Shown: positions 42,695 to 53,268 of the stretch, piece by piece
Layout of the letters: every line of letters begins with the position of its first letter
Position numbering within the stretch: the first letter of the stretch is position 1
Assembly (NCBI RefSeq): GCF_014873485.1
Contig: NZ_JADBDT010000001.1
Location: 1,674,001 to 1,738,000, forward strand
DNA: 64,000 nt
Direction: 5' to 3'
Source of the DNA: Sphingopyxis sp. OAS728
GTDB taxonomy: Bacteria > Pseudomonadota > Alphaproteobacteria > Sphingomonadales > Sphingomonadaceae
Position numbers and translations under genes: made by a program
Notes under the pieces: model-generated
What the model saw: the letters and a program-made list of their open reading frames with translations, nothing else
The model's database searches: none
What the model was told of the DNA's origin: nothing

Positions 42695-43159
42695 TTATCG
42701 ATTATCCGCCTTTTCCAGCACAGTCGGCCAATTTGCCTTGCTGCGGTCAATCGAAGCGGCGAGGTCTGCCTCCCACAGTTCTTTGGCACGCTGATTATAG
42801 TTCAGGTACAATCGCCCATCGACAATGCGCCACACCTTGGGGTCGCCGGGCGCTATATAATTCTGGCTCACCGCCCAGGCACAATAGCCGCCGAACTGGG
42901 GCGCAAACGCCGCAGGATCGGCGGCGAAGCGGTCGCGCGCATTGGCAGAGGCGAAGCGCCAAAGCGCGCCGTTCCAACGATATTCGAATGCAGCAGAGCC
43001 GGCAATGGGACCTCCGTCGGAGAAGTAGGAGACGGCGTCATAGCCTCCGATCGCAAGCCCTTCTTCAGACATCGACACAGGCGGCGCTGAAGCTGGTGCA
43101 GCGGAGGTGCCGACCGTCGAGGCCGAGGCCAGCACGATGGCAGCAATGATCATACGCAT
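42695..43159 (-). CDS. Exported YHS-domain protein
   Basis: 154 residues. ATG at 43159 starts a signal peptide (MRMIIAAIVLASASTVGTSAAPAS); an upstream ATG at 43174 is possible. The YHS-like domain includes GGYDAVSYFSDGGPIAGSAAFEYRWNGALWRFASANARDRFAADPAAFAPQFGGYCAWAV. YHS proteins often handle copper. It is 28 bases after the DoxX gene and ends the bufferin cluster, which supports a role in copper handling. Confidence 0.85.
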   Translation of the reverse strand: MRMIIAAIVLASASTVGTSAAPASAPPVSMSEEGLAIGGYDAVSYFSDGGPIAGSAAFEYRWNGALWRFASANARDRFAADPAAFAPQFGGYCAWAVSQNYIAPGDPKVWRIVDGRLYLNYNQRAKELWEADLAASIDRSKANWPTVLEKADNR

Positions 43160-43202
43160 GAAAGGAGGCTCCATTTCCCAAGATGGACGAGTCGTCGGAC
43201 CT

Positions 43203-43706
43203 TCAGCGGTCGGCGGCGCTCAAGCGAAAGCTCGACGACGTCGATTTGACCCGCACCGCGGAAAGCAACGCGTCGATCGAAAACAGCCCCCCGCCGCGCA
43301 CCACCAGGATTGCCGCCATCGCAACCCAAAGCGAATGCACCGGCCACCAGGCGTCGGGAAAAACGAAAATCTGGATGACCAGCGTCATCACGAGGAGCGC
43401 GCAGCCCGAGAAGCGCGTCGCGAGACCCAACAGCAGCAGGATCGGGAAAAAATGCTCGGCGTAGGTGGTCAGCGGCACGGCGAAGACCGGATCAAGCGGC
43501 AGCCCCGAGAATTCGGATGCGAACAGATCGTATTGCGACGGGTCGATCGACAAGAAGCTGCCCTCGACCACCTTGGTCTGCCCCGACCGCCAGAAGACGC
43601 CGGCGAGCGCGAGGCGCAACAGGAACAGCGCGGCGGATTCGGGGATGCGCGAGGCGGCGATTTCCACGCCGCGGTCATAGAATGCGACTAAGCGATTCAT
43701 CATCAA
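43203..43706 (-). CDS. DoxX family membrane protein of the bufferin cluster
   Basis: 167 residues, four membrane helices, DoxX fold (LLRLALAGVFWRSGQTKVVEGSF, TYAEHFFPILLLLGLATRFSG). DoxX-like proteins are frequent partners of DUF692/BufC clusters and may supply electrons or assist export. It overlaps bufC by ATGA. Confidence 0.88.
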   Translation of the reverse strand: MMMNRLVAFYDRGVEIAASRIPESAALFLLRLALAGVFWRSGQTKVVEGSFLSIDPSQYDLFASEFSGLPLDPVFAVPLTTYAEHFFPILLLLGLATRFSGCALLVMTLVIQIFVFPDAWWPVHSLWVAMAAILVVRGGGLFSIDALLSAVRVKSTSSSFRLSAADR

Positions 43707-44401
43707 AGCCTTTCAAATGCCCCTGCGTCGATCAGCGCCGCGAGAGCGGCGCCACCGTCGGGATGGTCTTCACCCAGACGCGCAAGGAGGTTACAGAGTG
43801 GAGAAATTTCTTTCGCAAGTTCGAGCGCCGCGATGCCTGCCAATTGCACAGGCAACAGCCGAACCTCGGCATGCGGCCGCGTGACGAGCAGCGCCGGCAT
43901 ATCCGGTGCGAAGGCCGGGTCGATCCGCGAGGCCGCGCCGGTAGCCAAGCGAAGAAATCTGGTCGCGGGATGCAGGCGCACCGGCATATCGAGCAGCGAC
44001 GCCTCGTCATGCCCGGCCAGATCAGCGAGCCCGAATGCGGACGCTTCAGCTGAATTGTAACTTTCGAGCCAGGCCCATTCGATGCGCGCCAGTTCGGCCG
44101 CGAGGGGGGCGTCCAGCCAGTCGGCAAAGCGTTCGCCAATGTTGGTCAGCGGCCGCCCTTCGGCCCCGCCCGCGTCGACGAAGGCGCGTGAAAGGCGATT
44201 GAACACGCCTTCACCGAGATGCTCACGCGTTTGCGGAAATGTCTCTTCGAGCGCGACGAGCCGTGCGTGCGAGATCGTGTTGGCGTGCACGCGAAGACCG
44301 CGCAGCACAGACGCCTCGTCCCCCGCAAAAAGCGCCTCGGGCAAGTGGCCCGGCCCATGCAGCAATGTCGCCGCGAGGGCGCTCTGGTCGAGCTCAAGCA
44401 T
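43703..44401 (-). CDS. bufC: BufC-type DUF2063 partner protein
   Basis: 232 residues. The helical N-terminal domain (LRGLRVHANTISHARLVALEETFPQTREHLGEGVFNRL) and RFADWLDAPL...IEWAWLESY match the DUF2063/HvfC family that accompanies MNIO enzymes and helps them bind the precursor peptide. It overlaps bufB by 8 bases and doxX by 4. Confidence 0.85.
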   Translation of the reverse strand: MLELDQSALAATLLHGPGHLPEALFAGDEASVLRGLRVHANTISHARLVALEETFPQTREHLGEGVFNRLSRAFVDAGGAEGRPLTNIGERFADWLDAPLAAELARIEWAWLESYNSAEASAFGLADLAGHDEASLLDMPVRLHPATRFLRLATGAASRIDPAFAPDMPALLVTRPHAEVRLLPVQLAGIAALELAKEISPLCNLLARLGEDHPDGGAALAALIDAGAFERL

Positions 44402-45260
44402 GGGCTATCTCGGACATCAGCAGCGCGTCGGCCGCCCTCGCCTCGCCCATGAGCGTCGCATAATCGGGAACGTCGGTGTCCCATTCGACAAGCACCGGTT
44501 TTGTCCCGCCGCGCGCAAGGAAGCGTGCAAGCAAGCCCCAGCAGCTCGACCGAACGGACGATCCGTGATCGTCGATCGCGATCATTCCGCCCATGTCGTC
44601 GTCCTTTACGGTGTGACCCGCAACATGGATCTCACCGACAAGGCCCGGGTCGAAGGCGTCGAGCCACACGACCGGATCGAGCCCGAGATTGAACGCCGAG
44701 ACCTCGACATTGTTGATATCAAGCAACAGGCCGCAGCCGCTGCGCCGGCAAAGCATGTGGAGGAACTCGACCTCGTCCCAGTCGCTCTGTGCATAGGCCA
44801 GATAACGCGACGGGTTTTCGATCAGGATCGTCCGGCCCAGCCGGTCCTGCACGCGGCCGACTTCACGCACGAAATGATCGAGCGCCGCATGAGTGTAGGG
44901 AATGGGAAGCAGGTCGGGGAACTTGTCCTTGGGTCCGTTGCTCCAGCTCAGATGGTCCGAGACCATCGCGGGCCCATAGCGGTCGCACAGCGCCGCAAGC
45001 ACCTCGAGTTCGTCAAGGTCGACGCCTGCCGCCGAGCCAATCGACAGACCGACAGAGTGAAAACTCAGCGGCAGATGCTCGCCGATCGCGGTCAGCCATC
45101 GGTGCGGTGGCCCGCCTGCGCCGAAGTAATTTTGGGGGTGCACCTCGGCCCAGGCGGGCGCCGTCCCGCGCTCCGCCGCTGCGAGCACATCGGCATAATG
45201 GCTCGATTTGAGCCCTATGCCGGCACGCGGCGGCAGCGAGTGGAGCACGGGAGCGGACAT
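44394..45260 (-). CDS. bufB: BufB-type DUF692 multinuclear non-heme iron oxidase (MNIO)
   Basis: 288 residues, TIM-barrel family DUF692. Conserved metal ligands are visible in EVHPQNYFG, SFHSVGLSIG, MVSDHLSW, LIENPSRYL, LLLDINNV, HVAGHT and VEWDTDVP. Family members modify Cys residues of precursor peptides; in bufferins they are reported to form thiooxazoles that bind copper. It starts 2 bases after the nearer BufA stop, so it is tightly coupled. Confidence 0.93.
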   Translation of the reverse strand: MSAPVLHSLPPRAGIGLKSSHYADVLAAAERGTAPAWAEVHPQNYFGAGGPPHRWLTAIGEHLPLSFHSVGLSIGSAAGVDLDELEVLAALCDRYGPAMVSDHLSWSNGPKDKFPDLLPIPYTHAALDHFVREVGRVQDRLGRTILIENPSRYLAYAQSDWDEVEFLHMLCRRSGCGLLLDINNVEVSAFNLGLDPVVWLDAFDPGLVGEIHVAGHTVKDDDMGGMIAIDDHGSSVRSSCWGLLARFLARGGTKPVLVEWDTDVPDYATLMGEARAADALLMSEIAHA

Positions 45261-45262
45261 CG

Positions 45263-45556
45263 TCAGCCCTTGCGCGGAGCCGGCTTGGCGTTGCCCGCGT
45301 GCGCGGTCAGCGTGCCGCCCATCTTGACGCAGGTGCCGGCCTTCACATGTTTCCAGGCGTTGCCCTGATAGTCGACGGTCGACGTGCCGGCACAGCTGGT
45401 GCCCGGACCGGCAGCGCAGTCATTCTTGCCTTTCAGCGAGATGCCGTAGCATTTTTCGGTCTTGCCTTCGGCGGCGGCGGCACCGCTGACGGCAGTGCCG
45501 GCGGCTATGGCGAGGATCGCCGAGGCGGCGAGCGACAGTTTCAGCGTATTGGTCAT
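45263..45556 (-). CDS. bufA: BufA-type bufferin precursor (DUF2282), copy 1
   Basis: 97 residues. ATG 45556 follows AGGGAG. The signal peptide [20 protein letters not shown] is followed by a short core with four Cys: [26 protein letters not shown] and GTCVKMGG. This matches DUF2282 bufferins, periplasmic RiPPs that buffer copper after Cys modification by BufB. It is immediately upstream of bufB. Confidence 0.92.
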
Positions 45557-45645
45557 TTCTATCTCCCTTGGTTGAATGGGTGATGCGAGGGATGGCATCG
45601 ATCACCGGTTCGCGGCCCAAGTTGAGGAGGTTACGTCGCGACAAA

Positions 45646-46377
45646 TTATCGCCCCGGGCGCAGCGACGCGATCGCGCCGCTGTCGAATATCGCGTGAACC
45701 GCTCGGGTGATTTCGGCATCGGGATAGAGTGCATGCGCCGCGGCCGATGCCGCGCCGATCGTCTCGCCGATGCGGAGCCCCGACAGGATGCGATGCTCGG
45801 CAGGACCGAGACGTCGCGCCCGGACGGTGTCCGCGGGACGCGTGATCAATAGCCCTTCGGCCTTCCATTCGGTCGTCACCTCGGCGCGGCGCGGCGCGAA
45901 ATGCGCGAGCCAGATCGAAGGGGCCGGCACGGCGAACCAGCCAAAGCGCGTGGCGGCGTGCAGCTTGACGCGGCTCGACGACCATTGTTCGGCGGTCATG
46001 CCCGCGATGAGGGCCGGCGCGACGGGCGCATCGGCCGGCGCGCGCGCCGATGCCAGCCACAGCCGGTCGATAGAAGCGACGGCCGAAAGATAGGGCAGCA
46101 CGCGCCCGATATCTCGGCCGACGATCCACTCCGGGAAAAGCTGGCCGTATGCGGCCAGTGCGGGACCGTCGGGCGGCACCGCAGCGACGAACTCGCATGC
46201 GAGATCACGAAAGGGCGCTGGTCCGAGGATCGCGGCGACGATCGGATAATTGGCGGCAAGCGCTTCGACCGCAGCGACCGGCGGGCGCGAACGACGCAGC
46301 CGTCGCGATACGCCGAACGAACGGCGTGCGTCGGCGACCGTCCGCTGGACGGTGGCAAGATCAGACATGATGGGCAT
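45646..46377 (-). CDS. Second BufC-like (DUF2063-type) protein
   Basis: 243 residues. The N-terminal helix region reads VAAVEALAANYPIVAAILGPAPFRDLACEFV, then QLFPEWI and LPYLSAVASIDRLW, as in BufC/HvfC. The family's N-terminal lead-in is poor, so it is more divergent than the other copy. It lies between the two precursor genes, downstream of bufA copy 2, with a hairpin separating them. It probably serves the same MNIO enzyme with the second precursor. Confidence 0.78.
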   Translation of the reverse strand: MPIMSDLATVQRTVADARRSFGVSRRLRRSRPPVAAVEALAANYPIVAAILGPAPFRDLACEFVAAVPPDGPALAAYGQLFPEWIVGRDIGRVLPYLSAVASIDRLWLASARAPADAPVAPALIAGMTAEQWSSSRVKLHAATRFGWFAVPAPSIWLAHFAPRRAEVTTEWKAEGLLITRPADTVRARRLGPAEHRILSGLRIGETIGAASAAAHALYPDAEITRAVHAIFDSGAIASLRPGR

Positions 46378-46387
46378 CCTCTCCTCA

Positions 46388-46420
46388 GGATGGGCGCCCC
46401 GGCGCGCGGCCGGGGCATCC
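46388..46420 (-). terminator. Intercistronic hairpin between bufA copy 2 and its BufC-like gene
   Basis: An 8-bp GC stem (GCCCCGGC at 46396-46403 with GCCGGGGC at 46409-46416) with a 5-base loop, extended by GGAT/ATCC outside a 4-base bulge. It starts just past the bufA stop and ends 11 bases before the next start codon. There is no T run, so it is more likely an attenuator or mRNA stabiliser than a full terminator. Confidence 0.5.
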
Positions 46421-46423
46421 GGG

Positions 46424-46702
46424 TCAACGCTTTTTGGGCGTCAGCGAGCCGACACCGTTCGGCGTCTTGATCTTCGCGCACGTCCCCTTGGCGACATATT
46501 TCCAGGCGTTGCCCTGATAGTTGGTGGTCGACGTACCGGCGCAGCTCGTGCCCGGGCCGGCGGCGCAGTCATTCTTGCCCTTCAGCGCCACGCCATAGCA
46601 TTTGTCCTTGCCCGGCTGCGCCGCGACGGGCCCCGCCTGCACCGCGGCGGTGGCGAGGAACGAGAGGGTGGCGGCAGCAAGTGCGATCGTCGATTTGTTC
46701 AT
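46424..46702 (-). CDS. bufA: BufA-type bufferin precursor (DUF2282), copy 2
   Basis: 92 residues; ATG 46702 preceded by AAGGA. The signal peptide [23 protein letters not shown] is followed by [26 protein letters not shown] and GTCAKIKT. The Cys core is nearly identical to copy 1, while leader and tail differ, so the pair arose by duplication with selection on the core. It lacks its own bufB and must rely on the shared enzyme. Confidence 0.92.
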
Positions 46703-46808
46703 GATGAAATCCTTTCCGTTGAGAGCGCCCTTCAGGGCGTGCCCTTTCATCGGCCGAAACGGGCGCTGCGTCCGCTACCCAAAGCGCATCGTTTCCATGC
46801 ATGGTGCG

Positions 46809-47939
46809 TCAGCACGTCGGCTCGACCATATGGCCGCCGATGGCCTCGTGCAGGATGAAGCCTTCGAGCGGGTCGAACTCGCCGCGCCACGGCGCCGCCT
46901 CGAGCGTGTGCATCGTGTCGGCATAGCCCGCCTCGCGCCGCTGGCGGATGCCGGAGGGGCTGAAGTCGATATCCTTGCTATGATCCTCCCCCGCGAGCGC
47001 CGGAGCAAGCAAGCGGATCACATGCATCCGCGTCGGGCAGCCATAGGCGGCGAGTTCGGGCACGCCGGGCGCCGTGCGGCATCCGTCGGGCAGCAACGCG
47101 GTCAATTCTGTGATCACATGGCGCAGCTTGTGGAGCTGGCGCTGACGGCGGATATGCGTGCCCGCGCGGCTCGAATATTGGACGTCTTTCTGGCGATTCA
47201 TCACGTCCCAGATCGTTTCGGGTTCGGGGCCGTGCGAATTCCATATGTGGACGGCGTAGACCATCGAGTCCCGCCGCGGATTGTCATCGAAGACCGCCTC
47301 GACGGGCGTGTTCGACAGGATGCCGCCATCCCAATAGAGGTCGCCGTCGATGCGCACCGCGGGAAAGGCCGGCGGCAAGGCGCCCGATGCCATGATGTGG
47401 CGAAGATCGAGCGGCATGTCGCGTGAATCGAAATAGCGCATCTCGCTGGTCGTGACGCTGGACGCGCCGACGGTCAGTCGCACGTCGCCATCGTTGATCC
47501 GGTCGAAGTCGATCAGGTCCGATAGCGTCTCGCGCAACGGATCGACTGAATAATAGGCCGCCTCCTCGGCACCAAGCGCCGCATGGACGCTGCCAAAGGC
47601 CGACGGATTGGGGGTGAAGAAGGTCGGCAATCCGCCGACGATCGTCGTCCAGTTGCGAAAGAAGCTCGCGACCGCTGCCGGAAGCGCGTGGTCGAAGCCA
47701 TGGCCGTGCTCGACGCGGCGCCAGAATTCCGTCAGGCGATCGATCCGCTCTTCGGCAGGGCTGCCCGCGATGATCGCGGCGTTGATCGCGCCGATCGAGG
47801 TGCCGATCACCCAATCCGGTTCGACCCCGGCCTCGTGCAGCGCCTGATAGACGCCGACCTGATAGGCGCCGAGCGCGCCGCCGCCCTGCAGCACGAGCAC
47901 TTGTTGCCCATGCGCCTTGAGTTCGCTGGCAAGGTTCAT
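46809..47939 (-). CDS. Patatin-like phospholipase family protein
   Basis: 376 residues; ATG 47939 (MNLASELKAHGQQVLVLQGGGALGAYQVGVYQAL) overlaps the upstream stop by ATGA. Oxyanion glycines GGGALG, nucleophile elbow GTSIG and the Asp of DGG (LYWDGGILSNTP) form the Ser-Asp dyad. Patatin proteins next to 3-hydroxybutyrate dehydrogenase are commonly linked to PHB granule or membrane-lipid turnover. It ends the bdh/ndh/patatin operon. Confidence 0.9.
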   Translation of the reverse strand: MNLASELKAHGQQVLVLQGGGALGAYQVGVYQALHEAGVEPDWVIGTSIGAINAAIIAGSPAEERIDRLTEFWRRVEHGHGFDHALPAAVASFFRNWTTIVGGLPTFFTPNPSAFGSVHAALGAEEAAYYSVDPLRETLSDLIDFDRINDGDVRLTVGASSVTTSEMRYFDSRDMPLDLRHIMASGALPPAFPAVRIDGDLYWDGGILSNTPVEAVFDDNPRRDSMVYAVHIWNSHGPEPETIWDVMNRQKDVQYSSRAGTHIRRQRQLHKLRHVITELTALLPDGCRTAPGVPELAAYGCPTRMHVIRLLAPALAGEDHSKDIDFSPSGIRQRREAGYADTMHTLEAAPWRGEFDPLEGFILHEAIGGHMVEPTC

Positions 47940-49204
47940 TTGCTCTCTCCATGAATGGGGGCATCGCCGCCGGTGATCAGCCGCGCGCCGCGCTCGAAGG
48001 TGAGGTAGTTCCAGAGCCAGTTCGCCCCGACGAGCAGCCGGTTGCGAAAGCCCGCGAGGAAGAAGATGTGCGCCGTGGTCCACACGAACCAGGCGAGCAC
48101 GCCCGACATCCGCAGCCATCCGAAATCGATCACGGCGCGGTGGCGGCCGATCGTCGCGAGATTGCCATAGTCGCGGTAGCGAAAGGGTATCGCTCGGCCG
48201 CGAAGGATCTGGTGCGCGACATGCCGGCCTTGCTGCTTCGCAACGGGTGCTATGCCGGGAAGACAGCGCCCCGCCCCGTCGGTGAACGAAGCCGTGTCTC
48301 CGATGGCGTAGGCGCCGGGGAGCCCGGGGACCGAAAGGTCCGGTCCAACGATGACGCGCCCGGCGCGATCCGCCTCGACGCCGAGCCATGCGGCGGCGTC
48401 CGATGCGCGTACGCCCGCCGCCCAGACGACGCTGTGCGTCGGCACGCGGATGCCGCCGATATCGATATAGGTTTCGGTGATCGCACTGACGCGCTTGTCG
48501 GTCATCACCGTGACGCCAAGGCTCTCGAGCGCTTTGCCCGCCTTGTCGGACAGGCGCGGCGGGAAGGAGGCGAGCAGCCGCGGCCCCGCCTCGACGAGCA
48601 GAACGCGCGAGCAATGCGGGGTGATGCTGCGAAAATCGCCCGAGACCGATCGCCGCGCGAGTTCGGCGATAGCGCCCGCCATTTCGACCCCGGTGGGCCC
48701 GCCGCCAACGACGACGAAGGTCAGCAGCGCCTGGCGGCGCAGCGGATCGGGCTCGGTCTCGGCCAATTCCAGTGCGAGCAGCACCTTGCGGCGCACCGTC
48801 GTGGCGTCGTCGATCGACTTGATACCGGGCGCGTGCTGTTCCCAGTCGTCGCGTCCGAAATAGCTGTGGCGCGCGCCCGTTGCGACGATCAGCCGGTCGA
48901 AGCGCACGGTGCGGCGACTTGCGAGCAGCACGCGCCGTTCGCCGGGATCGACGTCGATGACGGTGTCGAGGAGAACCTGCACATTCTTGTGCCGCCGCAC
49001 GATCGAGCGGATTGGCGCGGCGATATCGGCAGGCGACAGGCCCGCGGTCGCGACCTGATAGAGCAAGGGCTGGAACAGATGATGGTTGCGCTGGTCGATC
49101 AGCGTGACCCGGACGTTGCCGCGTGCAAGCTCGCGCGCGGCGGCAAGCCCGCCGAAGCCGGCGCCGATAATCAGCACATGGAGCGGTGAAGCGTCGGCCT
49201 TCAT
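47936..49204 (-). CDS. NAD(P)/FAD-dependent oxidoreductase, type II NADH dehydrogenase-like
   Basis: 422 residues; ATG 49204. FAD motif VLIIGAGFGGLAAAREL at the N-terminus, second nucleotide motif VVVGGGPTGVEMAGAIAEL near residue 165, and GAYAIGDTA for FAD. The C-terminus (GVLAWFVWTTAHIFFLAGFRNRLLVG) is a membrane-anchoring tail seen in NDH-2-like enzymes, so it is probably a quinone-linked NADH dehydrogenase. It overlaps the patatin gene. Confidence 0.87.
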   Translation of the reverse strand: MKADASPLHVLIIGAGFGGLAAARELARGNVRVTLIDQRNHHLFQPLLYQVATAGLSPADIAAPIRSIVRRHKNVQVLLDTVIDVDPGERRVLLASRRTVRFDRLIVATGARHSYFGRDDWEQHAPGIKSIDDATTVRRKVLLALELAETEPDPLRRQALLTFVVVGGGPTGVEMAGAIAELARRSVSGDFRSITPHCSRVLLVEAGPRLLASFPPRLSDKAGKALESLGVTVMTDKRVSAITETYIDIGGIRVPTHSVVWAAGVRASDAAAWLGVEADRAGRVIVGPDLSVPGLPGAYAIGDTASFTDGAGRCLPGIAPVAKQQGRHVAHQILRGRAIPFRYRDYGNLATIGRHRAVIDFGWLRMSGVLAWFVWTTAHIFFLAGFRNRLLVGANWLWNYLTFERGARLITGGDAPIHGESK

Positions 49205-49349
49205 CGCTCGTCTCCGCGTCTTGCGAGGTCGGCCAGGACGCCGCGCGGAGAGGCGGAACCCCTGTCGCGCGGCGATGGCCCAATCGGCCTCGAGACGAAG
49301 AAGGCGGCAAGATGCGGCGGGAGCGGCGTGTGATTGGAGGTCAGCGGGG

Positions 49350-50183
49350 TCATTGCGCGGTCCACCCGCCATCGACCGGCAACGCCGCTCCGGTGATCGA
49401 TTGCGCACCGTCGGAACAGAGGAAGACGGCGAGCGCACCCAGTTCGTCGACGCTCGCGAATTTCTTGCTCGGCTGCGCGGCGAGCAGGACATTTTCGATA
49501 ACCTCTTCGCGGCCGATCCCACGGGCTCTGGCTGTGTCGCCGATCTGGTTTTCGACGAGCGGCGTCCAGACATAGCCGGGGCAGATCGCATTGCATGTCA
49601 CACCGTGCCGCGCGCCTTCGAGCGCGACGGTCTTGGTCAGCCCGACGACCCCGTGCTTGGCCGCGACATAGGCGCTCTTGAAAGGCGAGGCGACAAGGCC
49701 GTGGGCCGAAGCGACATTGATGATGCGCCCCCAGCCCGCTTCCTTCATCGGCCCGAAGGCGGCGCGGACGGTGTGAAAGGCGGCCGACAGATTGAGCGCG
49801 ATGATCGCATCCCATTTGTCCGCGGGAAAATCCTCGATCGGACTGACATGCTGGATGCCGGCATTGTTGACGAGGATATCGGCGCGCCCGAAGCGCTGCA
49901 GCGCGTCGTCGACCAAGCGGGTCGCACCCTCGGGCTGCGTCAGATTTGCGCTGTCATAATGGACGCGCACGTCGGCACTCGCTTCGATCTGGCAGCAGAC
50001 ACGATCGATCGCTGCGAGCTCGCCGAGCCCGTTGAGGACAATATCGGCGCCCGCATCGGCCAGCGCGCGCGCGATGCCGAGCCCGATCCCGCTCGTCGAT
50101 CCGGTGACAATGGCGACACGGCCCGCCAGCGGGCGGGCGCTGGGCTGGGCGCGCTTGAGTTCGCCCAACGGCTGAACGGTCAT
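49350..50183 (-). CDS. 3-hydroxybutyrate dehydrogenase (SDR family)
   Basis: 277 residues; ATG 50183 after AGGAG. Cofactor motif TGSTSGIGLGIA, NNAGIQHVSPIEDFP, catalytic Ser in INVASAHGL, YVAAK (YxxxK), and C-terminal PVDGGWTAQ. NAG-IQ-HV and SAHGLVASPFKSAY are characteristic of BdhA-type enzymes oxidising 3-hydroxybutyrate to acetoacetate. It is the first gene of the operon with the NDH-like and patatin genes. Confidence 0.87.
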   Translation of the reverse strand: MTVQPLGELKRAQPSARPLAGRVAIVTGSTSGIGLGIARALADAGADIVLNGLGELAAIDRVCCQIEASADVRVHYDSANLTQPEGATRLVDDALQRFGRADILVNNAGIQHVSPIEDFPADKWDAIIALNLSAAFHTVRAAFGPMKEAGWGRIINVASAHGLVASPFKSAYVAAKHGVVGLTKTVALEGARHGVTCNAICPGYVWTPLVENQIGDTARARGIGREEVIENVLLAAQPSKKFASVDELGALAVFLCSDGAQSITGAALPVDGGWTAQ

Positions 50184-50415
50184 CTTGGCTCTCCTGAATG
50201 AATGGATGACCAAAGAATGGAGACATGCACGCCGCGGCGGAAATGCCGTTCGTGCATCGAAACCATGCCGACAATCGAATGTCCGCGCGCAGCGGCCCCG
50301 GCTAAATTTCGAGGCGTCCCGGGAAGCGGCCAGCCGTTATCGACCCCCCGCTCCCTCGCGTCGGCGCCGCCGCTTCCCGCGACATCGAATTCTTGCAACA
50401 GAAGGAACTATCGCA

Positions 50416-52326: not shown

Positions 52327-53268
52327 CTACGTATTCGCCGCCAACGCGGCGCGGGTTACAAACTCCAGCTTGATCGCGGCAGCGATCGACAGCGTCATTA
52401 CGCCCACCGCGACCCAGGCGTGTGGGAGCATCGCCGGCAGACCAAGCAGGATCAGCCCGTCGTTGCTGCCGGGAACGAGCGCAGCGCCCATCCCCATCAG
52501 CATGCCACCCGCGAGGCAGCGGACGACGGCAGCCGGCCGCGGCCATTCGCGGCGCAGCTTGCCCGCGATCGCCCCGCCCGCGATGGCCCCCGAAAGAAGC
52601 GCGACGACCATCGCACCGCGCAACGAGAGCATCGCGTCCATAGAGCGCGCCAATGCCGCCAGCGCGTCGGTGTAGGCCCAATATCCGGCACTCAGCAACG
52701 TCGTGACGAAGGTCAGCGCAATCAGCAGGGTCGCGCGATGCGGATGCCACAGATGAACGCCGATCCGCGGCGCGCGCGCCGCCTCGACGACGCGCCAGAT
52801 TGCAAGAACAGCAACGGCCAGCACGAGAACATATCCGATATTGCCGAAGCCAAATGATATCGCGTGCTGGCTCTCGGGTGCCGGAAAAGGAACAAGGCAG
52901 CCGATGAAAAAACCGACCGGGGTCGCAAGCCACGCCCATTGCCCCGACCCGATCCGCGCGACCGCTCCGAAAACGCACGCCTGGTTCACCCATGCGCCAA
53001 TGCCGAGCAGAAGCCCGCCGGCGATCGTCGCGCCATCGACCGCATAGGCGGGGAACGTCATCTGCAACCACCCCGTCGCCGCTGCGATCGTGGCAAGGCC
53101 GCCTGCCCAGACCGCCGCTTCGGCCAGCGCCACTGCGCGCGTGGCGCGGCCCGCACTCAATATCTCGTCGACCGCGGCGACCATGCAGGTCGCGCCGCGC
53201 TGGATAGCGAGCCCCATCAGGGCGGCGGACGCCAGCGCGACGAGAAGGACGCCCGCCGACGACATCAA
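52327..53268 (-). CDS. YeeE/YedE-family membrane transporter
   Basis: 313 residues, about ten helices, YeeE/YedE (thiosulfate/sulfur transport) fold. Family Cys motifs are seen in IQRGATCMVAAVDE and NQACVFGAVARIGSG, and PFPAPE follows GCL. Members transport thiosulfate or related sulfur species. It overlaps the DUF302 gene by 4 bases. Confidence 0.87.
   Translation of the reverse strand: MMSSAGVLLVALASAALMGLAIQRGATCMVAAVDEILSAGRATRAVALAEAAVWAGGLATIAAATGWLQMTFPAYAVDGATIAGGLLLGIGAWVNQACVFGAVARIGSGQWAWLATPVGFFIGCLVPFPAPESQHAISFGFGNIGYVLVLAVAVLAIWRVVEAARAPRIGVHLWHPHRATLLIALTFVTTLLSAGYWAYTDALAALARSMDAMLSLRGAMVVALLSGAIAGGAIAGKLRREWPRPAAVVRCLAGGMLMGMGAALVPGSNDGLILLGLPAMLPHAWVAVGVMTLSIAAAIKLEFVTRAALAANT

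Follow-up and report, generated by a model that had tools for sequence, protein, structure and literature searches.

A bufferin precursor and partner without an enzyme of their own beside a complete bufferin cluster in Sphingopyxis

Known bufferin clusters and the Sphingopyxis locus

Buf1-type bufferin clusters, such as that of Caulobacter vibrioides and the gig operons, encode a DUF2282 precursor, whose mature form carries Cys-derived thiooxazoles and binds copper, together with an MNIO enzyme, a DUF2063 partner and a DoxX-family protein. A cluster with these components in the usual order, A1-B-C1-DoxX, its peptide product predicted to bind copper, is found in Sphingopyxis sp. OAS728, in a stretch of 64,000 nucleotides (contig NZ_JADBDT010000001.1, positions 1,674,001 to 1,738,000) referred to here as the window. 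Unlike the known Buf1 clusters, however, the window also encodes a second precursor, A2, which has a DUF2063 protein of its own, C2, and no MNIO, and which belongs by descent to a separate cluster. The genes, all on the minus strand, are ordered A2, C2, A1, B, C1, DoxX, YHS. In the reading that we prefer, at somewhat less than even confidence, the A2-C2 pair is the remnant of a cluster that lost its enzyme: A2 would be modified by B, C2 would bind the A2 leader and act as an escort with its docking on the enzyme altered or lost, and A1 and A2 would be controlled separately.

Signal peptides are reported to take the part of leaders when oxazolins and bufferins are made (PMC13419390, citing Junger et al. 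2026), and HvfB is reported to reach its active iron state only with the partner HvfC (PMC13419390). PME1 proteins (NGO1945/3dee, HvfC and FonC) are described as almost universally encoded beside an MNIO (PMC13097082). In PMC12452194, they are proposed to mask the signal peptide until modification, and the question is raised of how partners retain precursors with signal peptides in the cytoplasm up to that point. The same source reports tandem precursors in Buf1 clusters, as well as genomes in which one MNIO-PME1 pair accompanies several precursors, which the window resembles in having one enzyme for several precursors. There, too, an MNIO gene located elsewhere in the genome was suggested to serve orphan precursors; unlike the MNIO-less precursors described there, the orphan in the window keeps a PME1-type protein, whose docking region appears eroded. 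No literature on MNIO enzymes in Sphingopyxis was found. Tandem precursors are thus known, but the titles, abstract openings and passages searched, mostly outside subscription journals, yielded no enzyme-less precursor-partner pair, and we therefore regard this pair as a new form of a known arrangement.

Both precursors recognised in the preliminary description of the locus match Pfam DUF2282 (cut-off 22.4 bits): A1 (45263-45556; 97 amino acids) at 82.1 bits and A2 (46424-46702; 92 amino acids, four Cys) at 86.4 bits. They are 57% identical over 77 amino acids, and 31 of 36 residues, counted by eye, are the same in the core KCYG...WK(H/Y), which agrees with the earlier view of a near-identical Cys core between differing leaders and tails. 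The four conserved Cys align in both, and both N-termini resemble signal peptides by eye. B (44394-45260) matches Pfam PF05114 at 299.5 bits (cut-off 25) and exceeds the NCBIfam equivalog cut-off for MNIO_BufB (323.1 versus 310). Searches of the whole genome (4.92 Mb, one contig, E <= 0.001) found no MNIO besides B and no DUF2282 protein besides A1 and A2, so that the single enzyme for two precursors noted at the locus holds genome-wide.

The two BufC-like proteins, of which the second had been called divergent, both exceed the Pfam DUF2063 cut-off of 27.2 bits. C1 (43703-44401) scores 48.0 bits over profile positions 3-83 of 83, overlaps the B gene by 8 bases and, as a DUF2063 domain adjoining an MNIO, conforms to the definition of PME-type 1 partners. 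C2 (45646-46377) scores 40.1 bits over positions 34-83 only, the first 33 being absent, and the doubt whether it is related to DUF2063 at all is thereby removed. The ATG at 46368 (MSDL...), at which its relatives also begin, is its likely start. An alignment of C1 with C2 (204 columns, 28% identity, E 3e-9) shows that they are homologous.

Origin of the A2-C2 pair

Four loci outside the genus (L074, L075, L076 and L067) have a complete cluster, NDH2-patatin-A2-B2-C2-DoxX, with an SDR gene ahead of NDH2 in L074, L075 and L067. Their enzyme, B2, is 44-46% identical to the window's B. When 80 genomes of the genus Sphingopyxis were searched for C2 orthologues at E <= 1e-20, seven carriers were found (the window genome, G047, G012, G043, G056, G361 and G362). 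All seven share the order SDR-NDH2-patatin-A2-C2, with A2 and C2 only 55-113 bp apart, and B2 is absent from every one. In the window, the SDR, NDH2 and patatin genes 5' of A2 (46809-50213, minus strand), assigned by Pfam and synteny, provide the synteny anchor that marks the place of the missing B2.

The surroundings of the pair differ among the carriers. In the window and G047, A1-B-C1-DoxX directly follows C2. In the other five (G012, G043, G056, G361 and G362), the A2-C2 contig has no MNIO and every MNIO found is on another contig, although the G362 contig stops 1.45 kb past C2 and that genome's only MNIO is the one on the other contig. One off-contig MNIO in each of these five sits in an A1-B-C1-DoxX cluster (L084, L085, L086, L096 and L098). 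Unlike PME-type 1 partners and TglI, the A2-C2 pair therefore stands away from any MNIO in five of seven carriers.

In a tree of C proteins (51 rows), the seven enzyme-less C2 form one clade (100/100) that is nested within the B2-linked C2 (next fork 98/92) and has a long stem branch (0.46), and in a tree of MNIOs (47 rows) the window's B falls within the B1 enzymes of the genus. Remoter C2 relatives, added by a genome scan, occur in Caulobacteraceae (L068-L071), where an MNIO adjoins C2 in all four loci; for this reason, loss of B2 is favoured over its late gain. A protein search with C2 returned 49 relatives, the named ones belonging to Sphingopyxis and Sphingomonas. A scan of named organisms gave no match with the single C2 as query and 12 loci with an alignment as query, six of them from G047, G043, G012, G361, G362 and G212.

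Duplication of one cluster within the genome was considered and ruled out, since C2 groups with the B2-linked C2 of other genera, which occupy the same locus. For A2, duplication is rejected on synteny and on alignment of the N-terminus and tail rather than on a precursor tree. On sequence evidence, one loss of B2 and its DoxX followed by one joining would be the simplest history. A second complete bufferin cluster, A2-B2-C2-DoxX, would once have stood 3' of SDR-NDH2-patatin; one ancestor in the genus would have lost B2 together with its DoxX; and in the lineage of the window genome and Sphingopyxis solisilvae the remnant would have landed directly 5' of the resident A1-B-C1-DoxX.

A2-B-C clusters of several genera have members of the set SDR, NDH2 and patatin at a distance of a few kb, in either orientation and not always as a full set (the window, L074-L081 and L067), which suggests a functional link between these genes and the clusters. 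Among these are five more loci of the family (L077-L081), in which A-B-C-DoxX has SDR and patatin nearby in the opposite orientation. In L090 (G019) and L092 (G212:C1), an A2-like DUF2282 gene lies divergent from an MNIO gene of a different, high-scoring type, with DoxX nearby.

The 3' end of the window's cluster is as first described, with DoxX followed by YHS. The DoxX-family membrane protein (43203-43706; Pfam 56.0 bits) is HvfX-like, under the NCBIfam cut-off. The YHS-domain protein (42695-43174) scores 22.4 bits in Pfam, under the cut-off of 30.3, and is assigned by NCBIfam YHS_seleno_dom (149 versus 70); a YHS gene also lies 3' of DoxX in L080 and L081. Matches of A1, A2, C1 and DoxX to NCBIfam models remain under the cut-offs (A1 against the BufA2 family, 33.1 bits versus 60), and C2 has no match. 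No copper family was detected at E 1e-5 among nine neighbouring open reading frames scanned.

Conservation, structure and control of the two precursors and partners

Ratios of nonsynonymous to synonymous substitution (dN/dS) were compared across the seven carrier genomes by the Nei-Gojobori method with a custom script; many synonymous distances are near saturation and the pairs are not independent. Of the five genes in this comparison, A2 is under the strongest constraint, with a median of 0.08 (A1, 0.17; B, 0.16). Its N-terminus and tail are still of the B2-linked A2 type, and two core residues near the central Cys match A1. The K before GKNDC is present in 7/7 enzyme-less A2 and 28/32 A1-type precursors and in 0/9 B2-linked A2; the T five residues after the third Cys is present in 7/7 and 31/32, respectively, and in 0/8 B2-linked A2, one row being broken by a stop codon. 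The P in AGPG is also common to enzyme-less A2 and A1, yet it occurs in 3/8 B2-linked A2. The 32 rows of the A1 group are the best BLAST matches to A1, and include L082, L083 and L091 from outside the genus and both genes of three tandems. In the A2 gene of L074 (G212:C6:952778-952939, a Sphingomonas metagenome-assembled genome), an in-frame TAG lies within the core of an otherwise complete cluster, representing either a true loss or a sequencing error.

These core changes would fit the use of A2 by B. A2 may thus be a still working bufferin precursor modified by the remaining enzyme, a role suggested by its strong conservation, its A1-type core residues and the fact that no carrier lacks an A1-B cluster. 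A DUF2282 gene with a Buf1-type MNIO is found in all seven carriers compared to 44 of the 80 genomes (hypergeometric P 0.012, kinship ignored). Recent gene conversion between A1 and A2 is not indicated, as the proportion of synonymous differences in the core is equal within genomes (0.43, 7 pairs) and between them (0.44, 42 pairs).

C2, on the other hand, appears changed where partners contact their enzyme. A motif (Y/H)RN(T/N), which was read from the alignments and which we equate with the MNIO-docking arm, is kept near the N-terminus of 10/10 B2-linked C2 and of 0/7 enzyme-less C2. C1 proteins have VHANT at this site. The window's C2 thus departs from PME-type 1 partners in this arm. In a table of 46 rows, 20 carry the complete motif; the other 26 include P0024 (YRNG), and gene context is available for a minority of them. 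When residues 1-15 are removed, TglI, a characterised MNIO partner, fails to bind its enzyme (PMC10880893). Median dN/dS is 0.66 for the N-terminal stretch of C2 (residues 2-33, the window C2 carrying in the scripts one extra residue ahead of its likely start), compared to 0.15 for its RRE domain and 0.16 for the N-terminus of C1 (residues 1-46). On this comparison of sequences, the docking of C2 on B seems altered or lost.

In the preliminary description, each precursor had a separate BufC. Two DUF2063 proteins are indeed present, but they do not appear to be equivalent catalytic partners, as C2 groups with the partners of the absent B2 and has lost the N-terminal motif. C2 is predicted to have a two-domain fold with a C-terminal RRE, and its model matches 3dee, 8hci and 8hi7; a profile search of the PDB with the alignment gave no match at E 0.1 although the folds match.

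Control of the two precursors also appears to differ. In Caulobacter, sigma-F is reported to govern DUF2282-MNIO-DUF2063 operons via GTAACC-N16-CGAA (PMC3511200), and a sigma-F-type promoter with this consensus lies 5' of A1 (45609-45634, minus strand), resembling those Caulobacter operons. The window contains two exact matches versus 0.04 expected, and the sequence is also found 5' of an ECF sigma gene adjoining the only NrsF of the genome. It occurs with at most one mismatch within 260 bp 5' of 28/32 A1-type genes, three of the four exceptions being the second gene of a tandem; at the same stringency, 56 of 4000 stretches of 260 bp drawn at random from the window contain it. With up to two mismatches, it is present upstream of 4/9 B2-linked A2 and of 0/7 enzyme-less A2. 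A different box, a candidate promoter or operator, is conserved 5' of A2 in 10/10 patatin-A2 loci aligned (seven enzyme-less, three B2-linked), and reads GCATGGAAACGATGC...GGGTAGCGGAC in the window (46770-46800, minus strand).

Given a sigma-F-type site 5' of A1 only and a different box 5' of A2, the two precursors are likely switched separately. The suggestion of distinct timing for the two peptides accordingly stands as regards separate control, which is probable, and goes no further. Even so, transcription of the window's A2-C2 may run on into A1-B-C1.

The box 5' of A2 is near-palindromic, GCATCG-AAA-CGATGC in several relatives, with one mismatch in the window. The second exact sigma-F-type match (52334-52359) lies inside a frame that holds a LysR-type regulator. 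Three other loci (L087, L088 and L089, in G004, G006 and G009) have two A genes in direct tandem followed by one B and one C, with no C2; the second precursor there has a different N-terminus and no sigma-F site of its own.

Alternative explanations and the function of the partner

In the preferred reading, C1 would probably be the activating partner of B, and C2 would be kept mainly for its RRE. This domain would bind the A2 signal peptide and hold or escort A2 up to its modification, while C2 would dock on B in an altered way or not directly at all. Should docking be lost, the active iron state of B would have to come from C1. A1 would be under the sigma-F-type promoter and A2 under control of its own.

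Several observations weigh against this reading. The escort role of C2 is proposed from relaxed constraint on its docking region, which does not in itself demonstrate such a role. C2 is missing from 73 of the 80 genomes at E <= 1e-20, and the pair is thus dispensable. The remainder of the N-terminal domain is constrained (dN/dS 0.21) and could still touch an MNIO, while in eight B2-linked C2 the N-terminus (0.44) evolves much as the RRE does (0.45), at distances near saturation. Structure was dropped as a means of judging the docking arm, since AlphaFold confidence is low at the N-termini of both C2 and the motif-keeping P0029, and the models do not separate the two kinds. The fourfold silent sites of the core place enzyme-less A2 no farther from A1 (0.35-0.38) than from one another, and farther from B2-linked A2 (0.47), so that the A1-type residues may stem from an old gene conversion rather than adaptation. 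Moreover, in L082, where the neighbouring MNIO is of B2 type and the partner of C2 type, the precursor (A1 type by BLAST) shows the T but not the K. Finally, a compensating change in B, C1 or A1 was sought and none is fixed: no residue separates the seven carriers from 16 non-carriers (together 23 of the 44 genomes that have A1-B), the best being Ser159 of B (7/7 versus 5/16).

A more specific form, possible but held with less confidence, treats C2 as an RRE protein uncoupled from its enzyme. The docking arm would have been freed from selection after the loss of B2, and C2 would bind the A2 signal peptide, delay Sec export and hand A2 to the B-C1 of the other cluster.

Closest to the preliminary description is an exchangeable holoenzyme, in which C2 docks on B differently and the partner picks the substrate, with B-C2 for A2 and B-C1 for A1. 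C2 is overall as constrained as C1 (whole-gene median dN/dS 0.24 versus 0.25); its RRE is conserved, as is its N-terminal domain outside the arm; A2 has kept its own N-terminus and tail while its core became A1-type; and the pair has joined A1-B-C1 in two genomes. However, the region of C2 matching the TglI docking segment is degenerate without approaching the VHANT of C1, and B has no carrier-specific residue. We consider this explanation less likely than the preferred one. Slow decay, in which both precursors are substrates of B-C1 and C2 is a relic that the cell could do without, is less probable still. The long stem of the enzyme-less clade, the scarcity of C2 in the genus, the shorter C2 of G056 and the loss of any DUF2063 match in P0035, which has the same N-terminus, are consistent with decay, but the C2 frame is open in all seven carriers and the dN/dS of its RRE and of the whole gene are not those of a relic. 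Least probable is an A2 that now goes unmodified and acts as a plain Cys peptide or otherwise, chaperoned by C2. Unmodified extra precursors are raised as possible in PMC12452194 and enzyme-less A2 lack the sigma-F-type promoter, but A2 is the most constrained gene of those compared, and around its two central Cys the core is preserved, with residues that also occur in B's A1 partners.

C2 apparently keeps the half that binds the leader and loses the half that grips the enzyme, providing a natural test of what such a helper does. If it is indeed uncoupled, C2 would represent a natural separation of the two jobs of an MNIO partner, substrate holding and enzyme activation. With one enzyme and two precursors in the same genome, these two jobs could be separated by plain gene deletions in a Sphingopyxis.

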